The notes beneath the pieces are model-generated. The model was given only the letters and a program-made list of their open reading frames with translations, was not told where the DNA came from and did not search any database. Positions 21,348 through 35,674 of a stretch of DNA of 41,204 nt are shown piece by piece. A program made the position numbers and the translations under genes. Source of the stretch: Chloroflexota bacterium (lineage in GTDB: Bacteria > Chloroflexota > Anaerolineae > JAAEKA01); the NCBI GenBank assembly GCA_029558955.1, contig JAKQCW010000268.1, positions 1-41,204 on the forward strand, written 5' to 3'. Position 1 is the first letter of the stretch, and every line of letters starts with the position of its first letter.

Positions 21348-21559
21348 GGTGTTTCTCCTTTTTGACGCCGACCGCCGCAGTTCAGCATGGACGCTGATGC
21401 ACGGTTCGCCTGTCTTGGTGTAAAATCCAGTGGATGCTCTGACCGGTCTTTGCCTGGCTCCCCGGCAGGGGCCGACCAAGCCGGCGTTGTACCCCATGCT
21501 ACCACAAGCCGCTTGCCTTGTCCAGCAGACGGCCCCAACGCGAGGATTTCGCCCGCCAC

Positions 21560-21850
21560 ACCGCCGCGCTCTGGCCGGTCTCCTGACCGAGCCAGCCCGC
21601 CACACCGCCGCGCTCTGGCCGGTCTCCTGACCGTGCCAGCCCGCCGCGCGACTTCCTGACCGCCGCGCTCTGGCCGGTCTCCTGACCGTGCCAGCCCGCC
21701 ACACCGCCGCGCTCTGGCCGGTCTTCTGACCGTGCCAGCCCGCCGCACCGCCGCGCTCTGGCCGGTCTTCTGACCGTGCCAGCCCGCCGCACCGCCGCGC
21801 TCTGGCCGGTCTCCTGACCGAGCCAGCCCGCCGCGCGACTTCCTGACCAT
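21560..21850. repeat. Tandem array of 44-bp palindromic units (family GCTCTGGCCGGTC)
   Basis: Six cores start at 21568, 21612, 21667, 21711, 21755 and 21799 (spacing 44, 55, 44, 44, 44). Each holds CTGGCCGGTC then, after TCCT or TTCT, GACCG(A/T)GCCAG, a hairpin with a 4-base loop. The 55-base step carries an extra GCGACTTCCTGAC piece, which recurs at the end of the array. The same core appears at 28502-28863, 35041 and 35675. The array fills the gap before cinA. Confidence 0.92.
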
Positions 21851-26955: not shown

Positions 26956-27417
26956 ATGACCAATCCCCTGCAAGTGGGCGATCTTGCCCCTGACTTTGCC
27001 CTGACCAGCGACGCCGGCGCGACGGTGCGGCTGTCTGACCTGCGCGGCCGGCGCGTGGTGGTCTATTTCTACCCCAAGGATGACACCAGCGGCTGCACCA
27101 CCCAGGCCTGCGGCTTCCGCGATATCTACCCGCAGATCGAGGAGAAAAACGCCGTGGTGCTGGGCATCAGCCCCGACGGCGTCGCCTCGCATCAGAAGTT
27201 CAAGAGCAAGTACAACCTCCCCTTCACCCTGCTGGTGGACGAAGAGCACAGCGTGGCCGAGGCCTACGGCGTCTGGCAGGAGAAGTCGATGTACGGCAAG
27301 AAGTACATGGGCATCGTGCGCAGCCACTTCGTCGTCGACGAGGCCGGCCGGCTGGCCGACGTTCAGGTCAAGGTCAGCCCGACGGACAGCGTCGAGCTGG
27401 CGCTCAAGGCGCTGTAG
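26956..27417 (+). CDS. bcp: Peroxiredoxin Bcp/PrxQ
   Basis: 153 residues, thioredoxin-fold thiol peroxidase reducing hydrogen peroxide and organic hydroperoxides. Peroxidatic Cys47 and resolving Cys52 lie in SGCTTQACGFRD, the spacing of atypical two-cysteine PrxQ. Other family blocks: GDLAPDFALTSDAG, VVVYFYPKDDTSGCTTQ, VVLGISPDGVASHQKFKSKYNLPFTLLVDE. Start MTNPLQVGD with AAGGAA upstream. Its last 14 bases overlap the end of the convergent SDR gene. Confidence 0.95.
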   Translation: MTNPLQVGDLAPDFALTSDAGATVRLSDLRGRRVVVYFYPKDDTSGCTTQACGFRDIYPQIEEKNAVVLGISPDGVASHQKFKSKYNLPFTLLVDEEHSVAEAYGVWQEKSMYGKKYMGIVRSHFVVDEAGRLADVQVKVSPTDSVELALKAL

Positions 27418-28432
27418 ACTCCGGCGTCTGCCAGGGGGGCTGGCCGGGCCAACTGCGCTGATAGGCCGCCAGCACCCGCTCGATCAGGATCTCCACATAG
27501 CGATCGCTCACCTGGCGCGCCGGATCGGCCTCGTGCCAGGCGACGATCTCCCGGGCGCCCCAGGCAAAGGGGATGGTGCAGGCGAAGCCGGGGGCCAGCC
27601 GCTTGATCTTGCTGTTGTCGAAGATCATGCTGTGGCTTTTGTCCCCCAGCAACCCCTCGCCGTGCAGCGGATCGTAGGCGTTGATCAGCGCGCTGGGCGC
27701 ATGGACCAGCGTCGCCTCGACGCCCAGCGCCGCCGCCATGGTCTGGTAGATCTGATTCCAGGTCAGCCACTCGTCGGAGGTGATGTGTACCGCGTCGCCG
27801 ATGGCGTGGGGGTTGCCCAGCAGCGCCACGAAGCCCTTGGCGAAGTCGCGGCTGTGGGTCAGCGTCCAGAGCGAGGCGCCGTCGCCGTAGACCAGCACCG
27901 GCTTGCCCTCTTTCATGCGTTGCAAGGAGGTGTAGCCGCCCAGCAGCGGAACCTTGGTTGCGTCGTAGGTGTGCGAGGGGCGGACGATGGTCATGGGGAA
28001 CTTTTCGTCGCGATAGGCGCGCACCAGCAGCTCTTCGCAGGCGATCTTCTGCCGCGAATAGTCCCAGAAGGGATTGTCCAGCAGGGTGGATTCGGTGACC
28101 GGCAGGCTGGCCGGCGGCGTTTGATAGGCTGAGGCGGAGCTGATGAAGATGTATTGTCCCACACGTCCGCGGAAGAGGGCCAGGTCGGCCGCGACCTGCT
28201 GCGGCGTGTAGGCGATCCAGTTCACCACCACGTCGAACTCATGGCCATGCAGCGCGGCCTGGGCGCTGGCAGGGTCGCGCATGTCGCCGTGCAGCAGGGC
28301 CACGCCCTTGGGCGCGGGCCGGGTCGTGCTCTGCCCGCGGTTGAAGCAGGTCAGGTCGAAGCCCATCTGCACGGCCCGGTCCGTGCAGGCGGAGCTGATC
28401 ACGCCGGTGCCGCCGATGAAAAGCACTTTCAT
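27404..28432 (-). CDS. NAD-dependent epimerase/dehydratase (extended/atypical SDR)
   Basis: 342 residues from ATG 28432 (MKVLFIGGTGVISSACTDRA); GGTGVIS at 7-13 is the NAD-binding turn. Ser-rich ISSASAYQ at 97-104 and the Tyr125-x3-Lys129 pair (DYSRQK) give the catalytic centre. Further conserved: VRPSHTYDATKVPLLGG and SRDFAKGFVALL. It resembles sugar-nucleotide epimerases and the CSP41-like RNA-binding SDR group; I cannot choose a substrate. The ribosome site is weak. Its 3' end overlaps bcp, and a repeat array fills the region upstream. Confidence 0.8.
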   Translation of the reverse strand: MKVLFIGGTGVISSACTDRAVQMGFDLTCFNRGQSTTRPAPKGVALLHGDMRDPASAQAALHGHEFDVVVNWIAYTPQQVAADLALFRGRVGQYIFISSASAYQTPPASLPVTESTLLDNPFWDYSRQKIACEELLVRAYRDEKFPMTIVRPSHTYDATKVPLLGGYTSLQRMKEGKPVLVYGDGASLWTLTHSRDFAKGFVALLGNPHAIGDAVHITSDEWLTWNQIYQTMAAALGVEATLVHAPSALINAYDPLHGEGLLGDKSHSMIFDNSKIKRLAPGFACTIPFAWGAREIVAWHEADPARQVSDRYVEILIERVLAAYQRSWPGQPPWQTPESTAP

Positions 28433-28501
28433 GGGTGATCCAGTCCTTTCTGTCGAGTTCAAGACTTGCGCAGCGCTGGTCTCGATGCAGCCCGGCATCC
28501 C

Positions 28502-28863
28502 GCTCTGGCCGGTCTCCTATCCCGCTCTGGCCGGTCTCCGACCGAGCCTCTCCTGCTCTCCTGCTCTGGCCGGTCTCCGACCGAGCCAGCGTGCGACTTG
28601 ATATCAGCGTTGCACGGATTTTGTCTCACGCAAAGCCGCAAAGACCGCAAAGGGGAGATGCTCTGGCCGGTCTCCGACCGAGCCAACGTTGCACGGATTT
28701 CGTCTCACGCAAAGCCGCAAAGACCGCAAAGGGGAGATGCTCTGGCCGGTCTCCGACCGAGCCAGCGTGCGATTTGATGCCAGCGTTTCACGGATTTCGT
28801 CTCACGCAAAGCCGCAAAGACCGCAAAGGGGAGAAGCTCTGGCCGGTCTCTGACCGAGCCAGC
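28502..28863. repeat. Composite array alternating two repeat types
   Basis: Six copies of the GCTCTGGCCGGTC palindrome start at 28502, 28524, 28563, 28660, 28739 and 28836. From the third on they alternate with a 35-bp TCTCACGCAAAG...GGGGAGA unit at 28624-28658, 28703-28737 and 28800-28834. Composite steps are 97, 79 and 97 bp; the short step lacks a GTGCGA-TTGAT segment. No gene in 28433-28959. Confidence 0.9.
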
Positions 28864-28959
28864 GTGCGAGTATCGTGAGTTGCCTGGGTGCGTCGGTGAT
28901 GGCCAGTGTATCTCAGGCCATCCAGAAAGTCCAGCCGCGCCCCCTGTGCGCGCGTGATG

Positions 28960-29241
28960 AGGACTGACAGTGCTGGCCACCAGCGGCCATCGCGCGGCCG
29001 AGATCAGCACTGTCAGTCCTGTGCGCGCGTGATGAGGACTGACAGTGCTGGCCACCAGCGGCCATCGCGCGGCCGAGATCAGCACTGTCAGTCCTGCGCG
29101 CGTGATGAGGACTGACAGTGCTGGCCACCAGCGGCCATCGCGCGGCCGAGATCAGCACTGTCAGTCCTGCGCGCGTGATGAGGACTGACAGTGCTGGCCA
29201 CCAGCGGCCATCGCGCGGCCGAGGTCAGCACTGTCAGTCCT
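28960..29241. repeat. Four tandem copies of a 61-bp hairpin element
   Basis: Units at 28960-29020, 29035-29095, 29108-29168 and 29181-29241. Each begins AGGACTGACAGTGCTG and ends with its exact complement CAGCACTGTCAGTCCT, around a GC-rich 29-base middle. Units are separated by GTGCGCGCGTGATG or its 12-base form. They are nearly identical, with only one base change seen in the fourth. The array ends 26 bases before the yifB promoter. Confidence 0.95.
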
Positions 29242-29266
29242 GCGCGCGGCGCGCCGTCCGTGCCGG

Positions 29267-29295
29267 TTGTCAATCCCGCCCCCTTCTGGTACAAT
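29267..29295 (+). promoter_or_regulatory. Promoter of yifB/comM
   Basis: -35 TTGTCA (29267-29272), 17-base spacer, -10 TACAAT (29290-29295) with TGG before it. The ATG at 29348 is about 46 bases after the expected start. Confidence 0.75.
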
Positions 29296-29347: not shown

Positions 29348-30889
29348 ATGCTGGCAAAAGTCATCAGTTGTTCAGTGGTTGGTCTGGAAGGCACGGCGGT
29401 CGAGGTCGAGGTGGACATCTACGCCAACTCGCTGCCCTCGATCACCTTGGTCGGCCTGCCCGATGCCGCGGTCAAAGAATCGACCGAGCGGGTGCGCGCG
29501 GCGCTGTTCAACTCGGCGCTGTACTATCCGCGCGGGCGCGTGACGGTCAACCTGGCGCCGGCTGACCTGCGCAAGGTGGGGCCGGTCTACGATCTGCCGA
29601 TCGCGGTGGGACTGTTGGCGGCCAGCGAGCAGGTGCCGCTGGATCGACTGGAAAACACCCTCTTCATCGGCGAGCTGAGCCTGGACGGCAGCCTGCGCCA
29701 CATCGATGGGGTGCTGCCCATGGCCCACATGGCCCAGCAGCAGGGGGTCAAGACCGTCTATCTGCCGGAGATCGACGCGCCTGAGGCCGCGCTGATCCGC
29801 GGGCTGGAGGTGATCCCCGTGCCCTCCATGTCGGCCCTGGTCTCGCACCTGCGCGATTTCGATCCCATCCCCCCCTTCGAGCACAGCGAGCGTTTCGACC
29901 AGGTGGAAGACCTGCCCTACACGGTGGATTTCGCCGACATCAAGGGGCAGGAGCACATCAAGCGGGCGTTGGAGGTGGCCGCGGCCGGCGGGCACAACTG
30001 TCTGATGACCGGCAGCCCCGGCGCGGGCAAGACCTTGATGGCCCGCTCACTCCCCTCGATTCTGCCCAAACTGACCCTGGACGAGGCGCTGGACATCACC
30101 CGCATCTATTCGGTGACGGGACAGTTGCCCCCGGATACGCCGCTGGTCAATCAACGGCCCTTCCGCGCGCCGCATCACACCATCAGCAACGCTGGGCTGG
30201 TAGGGGGCGGCCGGCTGCCGCGGCCGGGAGAGATCAGCCTGGCCCATCGCGGCGTGCTCTTTCTGGACGAGCTGCCGGAGTTCGGGCCGCACAACCTGGA
30301 GACGCTGCGCCAGCCGCTGGAGGACAAGGTGGTGACCATCAGCCGCGCCCAGGGTTCGCTCAGCTTTCCCGCCAATTTCATGCTGGTCGGCGCCATGAAT
30401 CCCTGCCCCTGCGGCTGGTATGGCGACACCCAGCACGAGTGCACCTGCTCGCCGGCCGTGGTCAGCCGCTATCAGAAGCGCCTCTCTGGCCCGCTGCTGG
30501 ACCGCATCGACATCCACGTGGAGGTGCCGCGGGTCGATTTCGACAAGCTGAGCGACGCGCGGCGGGGTGAGACCTCCAAGACGATCCGTGAGCGGGTGGA
30601 GGCGGCCAGAGAGCGGCAGCGGCGGCGTTTTGCCAGCTATGCCGATGGCCACAGCCAGCTCCTGACCAACGCGGACATGGGACCGGGGGAGATTCGTGAG
30701 TTCTGTGCGGTGGACGAGGCTGGCCACAGCCTGCTGCGCGCGGCCATGCGTCAGCTGCACATGAGCGCCCGCGCCTATCATCGCACCCTGAAGCTGGCCC
30801 GCACCATCGCGGACCTGATCGGCGCCGAGCGCATCGAAACCGCGCATCTGGCCGAGGCGATCCAGTACCGGCCCAGGTGGCAGGTGTAA
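29348..30889 (+). CDS. comM: YifB/ComM family AAA+ ATPase (Mg-chelatase-like)
   Basis: 513 residues from ATG 29348 (MLAKVISCSVVGLEGTAVEVEVDI). N-terminal S5/Lon-like domain (1-170), then the AAA+ core with Walker A GSPGAGKT (222-229), Walker B VLFLDELPEF near 306, and the Cys-rich insert NPCPCGWYGDTQHECTCSP near 350. C-terminal part ends ARTIADLIGAERIETAHLAEAIQYRPRW. ComM is a branch-migration helicase that helps integrate DNA taken up by transformation. Own promoter just after the 61-bp array. Firm family call; role in transformation in this organism is inferred. Confidence 0.93.
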   Translation: MLAKVISCSVVGLEGTAVEVEVDIYANSLPSITLVGLPDAAVKESTERVRAALFNSALYYPRGRVTVNLAPADLRKVGPVYDLPIAVGLLAASEQVPLDRLENTLFIGELSLDGSLRHIDGVLPMAHMAQQQGVKTVYLPEIDAPEAALIRGLEVIPVPSMSALVSHLRDFDPIPPFEHSERFDQVEDLPYTVDFADIKGQEHIKRALEVAAAGGHNCLMTGSPGAGKTLMARSLPSILPKLTLDEALDITRIYSVTGQLPPDTPLVNQRPFRAPHHTISNAGLVGGGRLPRPGEISLAHRGVLFLDELPEFGPHNLETLRQPLEDKVVTISRAQGSLSFPANFMLVGAMNPCPCGWYGDTQHECTCSPAVVSRYQKRLSGPLLDRIDIHVEVPRVDFDKLSDARRGETSKTIRERVEAARERQRRRFASYADGHSQLLTNADMGPGEIREFCAVDEAGHSLLRAAMRQLHMSARAYHRTLKLARTIADLIGAERIETAHLAEAIQYRPRWQV

Positions 30890-35469: not shown

Positions 35470-35674
35470 GGCGTAAATAACTCTTCAGTTGACCTGCTCC
35501 CGGCGGATCTGTGATCCGCCGGGTTTGCGCCCACAACGCCGCCGGTTCACGGAACCGGCTTGAGCAGTGAGTGAGGCGTAAATAACTCTTCAGTTGACCT
35601 GCTCCCGGCGGATCTGTGATCCGCCGGGTTTGCGCCCACAACGCCGCCGGTTCACGGAACCGGCTTGAGCAGTG
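35470..35674. repeat. Two 100-bp repeats, each with two perfect hairpins
   Basis: Copies at 35470-35569 and 35575-35674, apparently identical, 105 bp apart. Each contains CCCGGCGGATC-TGT-GATCCGCCGGG (11-bp stem) and GCCGGTTC-ACG-GAACCGGC (8-bp stem). They abut the broken end of the ATPase remnant. Confidence 0.92.

Follow-up and report, generated by a model that had tools for sequence, protein, structure and literature searches.

What are the four near-identical hairpin units that stand in tandem in front of a comM/yifB-family gene in the genome of this uncultured Chloroflexota bacterium, and how did they come to be there? In the window, i.e., the whole stretch of 41,204 nucleotides that was analysed, a sequence-only reading had described four 61-bp units at 28960–29241 with perfect 16-bp inverted ends, a description that coordinates and sequence bear out. 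We consider it very probable that these units form a tandem cluster of REPINs, in which a short palindrome repeated over the genome (REP) is paired in inverted orientation, and that they belong to a REP/RAYT system; their family was most likely spread by a REP-associated tyrosine transposase (RAYT) encoded elsewhere in the genome, on contig C270, because the same family brackets the RAYT gene in this genome and in a congener, and because RAYTs and palindromes are paired across the class.

The array and its surroundings

The unit ends, AGGACTGACAGTGCTG and CAGCACTGTCAGTCCT, are perfect 16-bp inverted repeats flanking a 29-base core, and the sole difference between the units is an A to G change at 29224 (Table 1). 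The spacers measure 14, 12 and 12 bases, with start-to-start distances of 75, 73 and 73, and the array as a whole has a TRF score of 579 with 98% matches. The sequence CTGACAGTGCTG, allowing at most one mismatch, is found at 8 sites in the 41,204-nt window against 0.3 expected, and chance is therefore excluded. As single-stranded DNA, a single unit folds with –22.3 or –23.5 kcal/mol (either strand), with a z of about –6; an Rfam search of the window gave no match. A CRISPR array would have constant repeats and different spacers, whereas here the spacers copy one another, in agreement with the initial judgement that the array is not of this kind. The local amplification proposed in the same reading is likewise upheld, since units and spacers are near-identical within the locus and the cores are unlike those of other loci.

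Table 1. Positions in the window of the array, its units and the neighbouring features.
Feature	Position	Strand	Description
REPIN unit 1	28960–29020	.	61 bp: REP arm 28960–28975, core 28976–29004, inverted REP arm 29005–29020
REPIN unit 2	29035–29095	.	61 bp, identical to unit 1
REPIN unit 3	29108–29168	.	61 bp, identical to unit 1
REPIN unit 4	29181–29241	.	61 bp, A to G at 29224
Whole tandem array with repeated spacers GCGCGTGATG	28947–29248	.	TRF: period 73–75 bp, 4.1 copies
comM/yifB-family AAA ATPase gene, right neighbour	29348–30889	+	TIGR00368, E 1.7e-178; PF01078, PF13541, PF13335
NAD-dependent epimerase/dehydratase-family gene, left divergent neighbour	27404–28432	–	PF01370, E 2.9e-23
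Promoter-like TTGTCA-17-TACAAT of comM	29267–29295	+	from sequence; TACAAT at 29290; downstream of the array

The gene downstream does encode a YifB/ComM-family AAA ATPase (TIGR00368), as first read, and the array ends about 20 bases before its promoter-like sequence, in a divergent intergenic region of 900 bp that is repeat-rich throughout. The same region holds 79- and 97-bp direct repeats with TCTCACGCAAAGCCGCAAAGACCGCAAAG (28608–28869). A second local palindrome-array family, GCTCTGGCCGGTCTCCTGACCG[A/T]GCCAG, lies at 21551–21848 and 28497–28869 of the window; CTGGCCGGTCTC recurs in further loci of the same genome (11 times in L018, four times in L074, three times each in L017 and L070), and a transposase matching this second family, if any, was not found. 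Elsewhere in the window there are a perfect 105-bp tandem duplication containing the palindrome CCCGGCGGATC-TGT-GATCCGCCGGG (35470–35674) and, at the start of the contig (200–601), heptamer-rich repeats (GTAACTC, TTACGCA) together with a repeat of 57-bp period.

In the orthologous region of the congener G001 the epimerase gene and comM are both kept and an array-type element is absent, while in G002 the array is absent before comM and an inverted pair of AGACCCTTCGGGTTT stands in its place; the search of G003 gave no comM match. Promoter-like sequences similar to TTGTCA-17-TACAAT precede comM in both G001 and G002; among the genomes compared the array is thus lineage-specific, and the promoter is kept without it. 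The special role at comM suggested in the sequence-only reading is not supported, given this absence and the presence of the family at many unrelated places, including within genes; comM is one of many positions that the REPIN family occupies.

A palindrome family of the genus

Genome-wide copy counts were obtained by pattern searches. A query with one unit matched 26 places in the same genome, at which the ends were common and the core and spacer locus-specific, and the ends were also recovered in congeners. The 12-mer AGGACTGACAGT has 151 copies in its own genome against 1 for a reversed control, so that a short palindrome is repeated genome-wide as in REP/REPIN families; with one mismatch the numbers are 264 and 21, and much of this increase should come from self-palindromic copies (AGGACTGTCAGT) that match on the opposite strand as well, which probably leaves few degenerate ones. 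Three congeners carry 46 (G002), 43 and 24 copies, and the other genomes of the phylum 0–2 (even sample, n = 399). The ends are those of a genome-wide and genus-wide family, and the chance expansion of a unit found only here, without relatives, does not hold. The 15-mer AGGACTGACAGTCCT was not found in a search of the open-access literature, and no description of this palindrome family was found in the literature searched, which was mostly without subscription papers.

The copies are gathered in about 35 local clusters in their own genome and about 80 in the four genomes of the genus, beside unrelated genes. By a simple gene caller (codon-score script), 69 clusters could be classified, of which 29 lie between co-directional genes, 15 between convergent and 9 between divergent ones, and 16 inside genes, although one of the latter, adjoining the RAYT gene, reflects an over-extended frame. 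Most of the family (53/69 clusters) is therefore extragenic, as is typical of REPs and REPINs; copies inside genes and in frame occur in ileS-like and alcohol-dehydrogenase-like genes (named by inspection). G034 belongs to a different family and consists of a single contig; it has one locus in common with G003, a 2.7-kb stretch with one REPIN that is 92% identical between the two (L168/L188), a likeness that may reflect horizontal transfer or a mis-binned contig. In L184, two near-identical 81-bp units lie 1.6 kb apart; this pair was considered as an autonomous transposon and rejected, the ORF between them being without transposase features by eye.

The REP of the family can be written AGGACTGACAGT[G/C]CTG. 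The units are inverted pairs of it, able to form a hairpin, often in tandem, and fall into length classes of 33–34, 38–52, 60–64 and 77–83. Taken singly, each end of a unit is also palindromic or nearly so. At its third-last position the 15-mer has either G or C, and a GCT end is never paired with a CCT end within a unit (53 GCT/GCT, 27 CCT/CCT and 11 other variants); of 31 short units, 28 have complementary bases at their centre. Conservation ends at the outer A and, inward, fades after a preferred G. Among 229 copies the flanking composition is near background and a GTAG/GT[AG]G or CGTC foot is absent, GTAG occurring within 8 nt on the 5′ side in 2 copies, GTGG in 5 and CGTC in 8.

Ten sets of orthologous sites were aligned, nine pairs of which gave a flank divergence of 12.9%. 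Within the REP ends, changes were counted by hand on the alignments at about 10 of 270 positions, 6 of these changes forming three matched pairs that affect both arms, at position 13 in L069/L167 and at the centres in L063/L161 and L070/L163. The loci were found through exact 12-mers, which biases end conservation upwards, but the partner ends, not selected by the same 12-mer criterion, are still mostly exact. The cores range from about 75–80% identity to unalignable and also shift in length (80 vs 47; 34 vs 82). A tentative and rather doubtful explanation is a continuous rewriting of REPINs at their sites, in which either the hairpin serves as template for correction or the RAYT exchanges one REPIN for another; if so, rewriting would leave just the ends that the enzyme reads.

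RAYT genes and the palindromes beside them

On contig C270 a RAYT gene of about 205 codons (L016:4999–5622) is bracketed by the same palindrome, with an array of 11 REPs on its 3′ side and a REP pair on its 5′ side. It was recognised only through the reading of a REP locus, and its product scores below the Pfam cut-off for Y1_Tnp (PF01797); against NCBIfam REP_Tyr_transpos it reaches E 2.7e-14 and 53 bits, below the equivalog cut-off of 80. The NCBIfam model is matched by all seven aligned homologs, and a seven-member RAYT profile matches E. coli TnpA_REP (4ER8, E 3.2e-5). H61-F62-H63 and Y101 are among the residues that do not vary, and Y101 is a candidate catalytic tyrosine. The ortholog in G001 (73%) is embedded in arrays as well, with the common palindrome on the 3′ side and its one-base variant AGGACTGACCGTCCT in the 5′ array (L174:2460–2900); a RAYT of this type was not found in the G002 bin (72% complete, 46 copies). 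The loci of the genus whose Y1_Tnp (PF01797) matches lie above the Pfam cut-off were considered as a source and rejected, being motif-free within about 1.5 kb, with the exception of a single 8-mer GGACTGAC in L195.

Homologs of the RAYT are present in 17 of 60 relatives. A 12-mer common to both sides was found in 15 of 24 RAYT loci compared with 12 of 260 control gaps at other loci; the shared 12-mers are nearly always palindromic (G003_C45a and G034_C1 are not convincing), and several of the nine negative loci have one incomplete flank. Where the flanks can be read, most of these homologs across the class thus stand between copies of a palindrome of their own. Each RAYT has its own REP type, and RAYTs that are sisters on the tree have similar palindromes. 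One such palindrome, AGACCCTWMGGGTTT, which adjoins the RAYT genes in G431 and G031, served to test the prediction of dispersal: it has 21 dispersed copies in G431 and 23 in G438, against 0 for the control, and is present in several other genomes too; in G031 all 6 copies are at the RAYT locus itself, and dispersal is therefore not general. The RAYT genes of G438, G431 and G031 (L198, L199 and L203) contain a pair of their own palindrome in frame between the HUH and Tyr motifs; the C270 gene is without such an insertion.

Origin of the array and related systems

The likely source of the comM hairpins is the RAYT gene of C270, amid the same palindromes, and by analogy with the E. coli enzyme its product probably uses single-stranded DNA as the substrate when it moves these REPINs. 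Two REPs would pair into a hairpin when the DNA is single-stranded, the RAYT, an HUH single-strand transposase, would read, cut and rejoin the hairpin ends, and a copy of the REPIN would insert at a new site. Once a REPIN had arrived before comM, slippage or recombination between copies probably brought unit and spacer to four, as the near-identity within the locus and the locus-specific cores suggest.

Three other explanations have to be weighed. Control of comM by the array, acting as a cis-regulatory or protein-binding cassette, would suit its end so close to the promoter-like sequence and a stem sequence nearly as fixed as a binding site would be, but we regard it as very improbable: G001 and G002 keep a similar promoter without the array, and the four genomes have some 80 clusters whose neighbouring genes are unrelated, about 15 of these clusters being intragenic. 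If the 16-mers were the terminal inverted repeats of MITEs that a DDE transposase mobilises, the family would likewise be dispersed over the genome and have short inverted ends and a non-coding interior; MITEs, however, share their interiors and carry target-site duplications, whereas here the interiors differ between loci, no target-site duplication was seen on inspection by eye, each end is palindromic or nearly so, and the motif brackets a RAYT gene, so that little credence can be given to this origin.

The units might also be RNA hairpins for transcription termination or mRNA stability, selected site by site. They fold strongly, the genes on either side are co-directional or convergent at 44 of the 69 classifiable clusters, and both arms change in matched fashion at orthologous sites. 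Nevertheless, the array of the window has divergent genes on its two sides and a promoter downstream of it, the sequence is nearly fixed beyond what mere pairing would need, and copies are found within the ileS-like, alcohol-dehydrogenase-like and RAYT genes; such selection is thus a most unlikely origin, and any action as RNA hairpins could have come secondarily to REPINs without being what defines them.

Taken as REPINs of a RAYT, the palindromes bear on how RAYTs choose their REPs and why their genes endure in single copy. These genomes provide about ten pairs of RAYT and palindrome, in which the GTAG foot is missing and related RAYTs have similar palindromes, and thereby a natural series for testing recognition rules outside the well-studied Proteobacteria; the orthologous sites also reveal what is conserved in a REPIN when its flanks have diverged by about 13%.

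One close likeness is to Pseudomonas fluorescens SBW25, in which REPINs form ordered clusters including their flanks (Bertels and Rainey, 2011; PMC3116915). Shared with it are REPs joined as inverted doublets, the ordered tandem clusters with their flanks, a REPIN cluster beside each RAYT and an own REP type per RAYT (PMC3116915); the present family differs in its phylum, its untagged REP of 15–16 nt, its four length classes and its cores, largely unrelated between loci. In vitro, E. coli TnpA_REP cleaves its cognate REP and joins it again (Corneloup et al., 2021; PMC8266576), and REPtrons and BIMEs have, as here, a REP-flanked HUH single-tyrosine enzyme and inverted REP pairs with a variable linker, often in tandem (PMC8266576); E. 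coli REPs, however, are longer and bulged and have a GTAG foot essential for activity (PMC8266576), which the Chloroflexota REPs do not have. In TnpA_Y1 subclass 2.4 (RAYT group 4) in-frame REP insertions separate the HUH and Tyr motifs of RAYT genes (PMC6006769), as in our three homologs, and both are scattered across phyla, a likeness in features; subclass 2.4 REPs as described bear GT[AG]G feet (PMC6006769). REP-like structures without GT[AG]G are reported for subclass 2.6 of Bacteroidetes (PMC6006769). GTAG repeats are known from Chloroflexi (PMC3733652), and the GTAG- and CGTC-tagged repeats resemble the present ones as short palindromes with dimers in opposite orientation, some of them intragenic (PMC3733652), but the family has neither tag. 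If the proposed model is right, integron attC sites would be similar in their conserved stem ends, variable centre and reading as a folded single strand; no integrase or cassettes were seen at these loci, and membership is not proposed. Two traits set the present family apart from the well-described ones, namely the missing GTAG or CGTC foot and the retention of its ends where orthologous cores diverge; we read it as a Chloroflexota variant, with untagged REPs, of the REP/RAYT systems already known.
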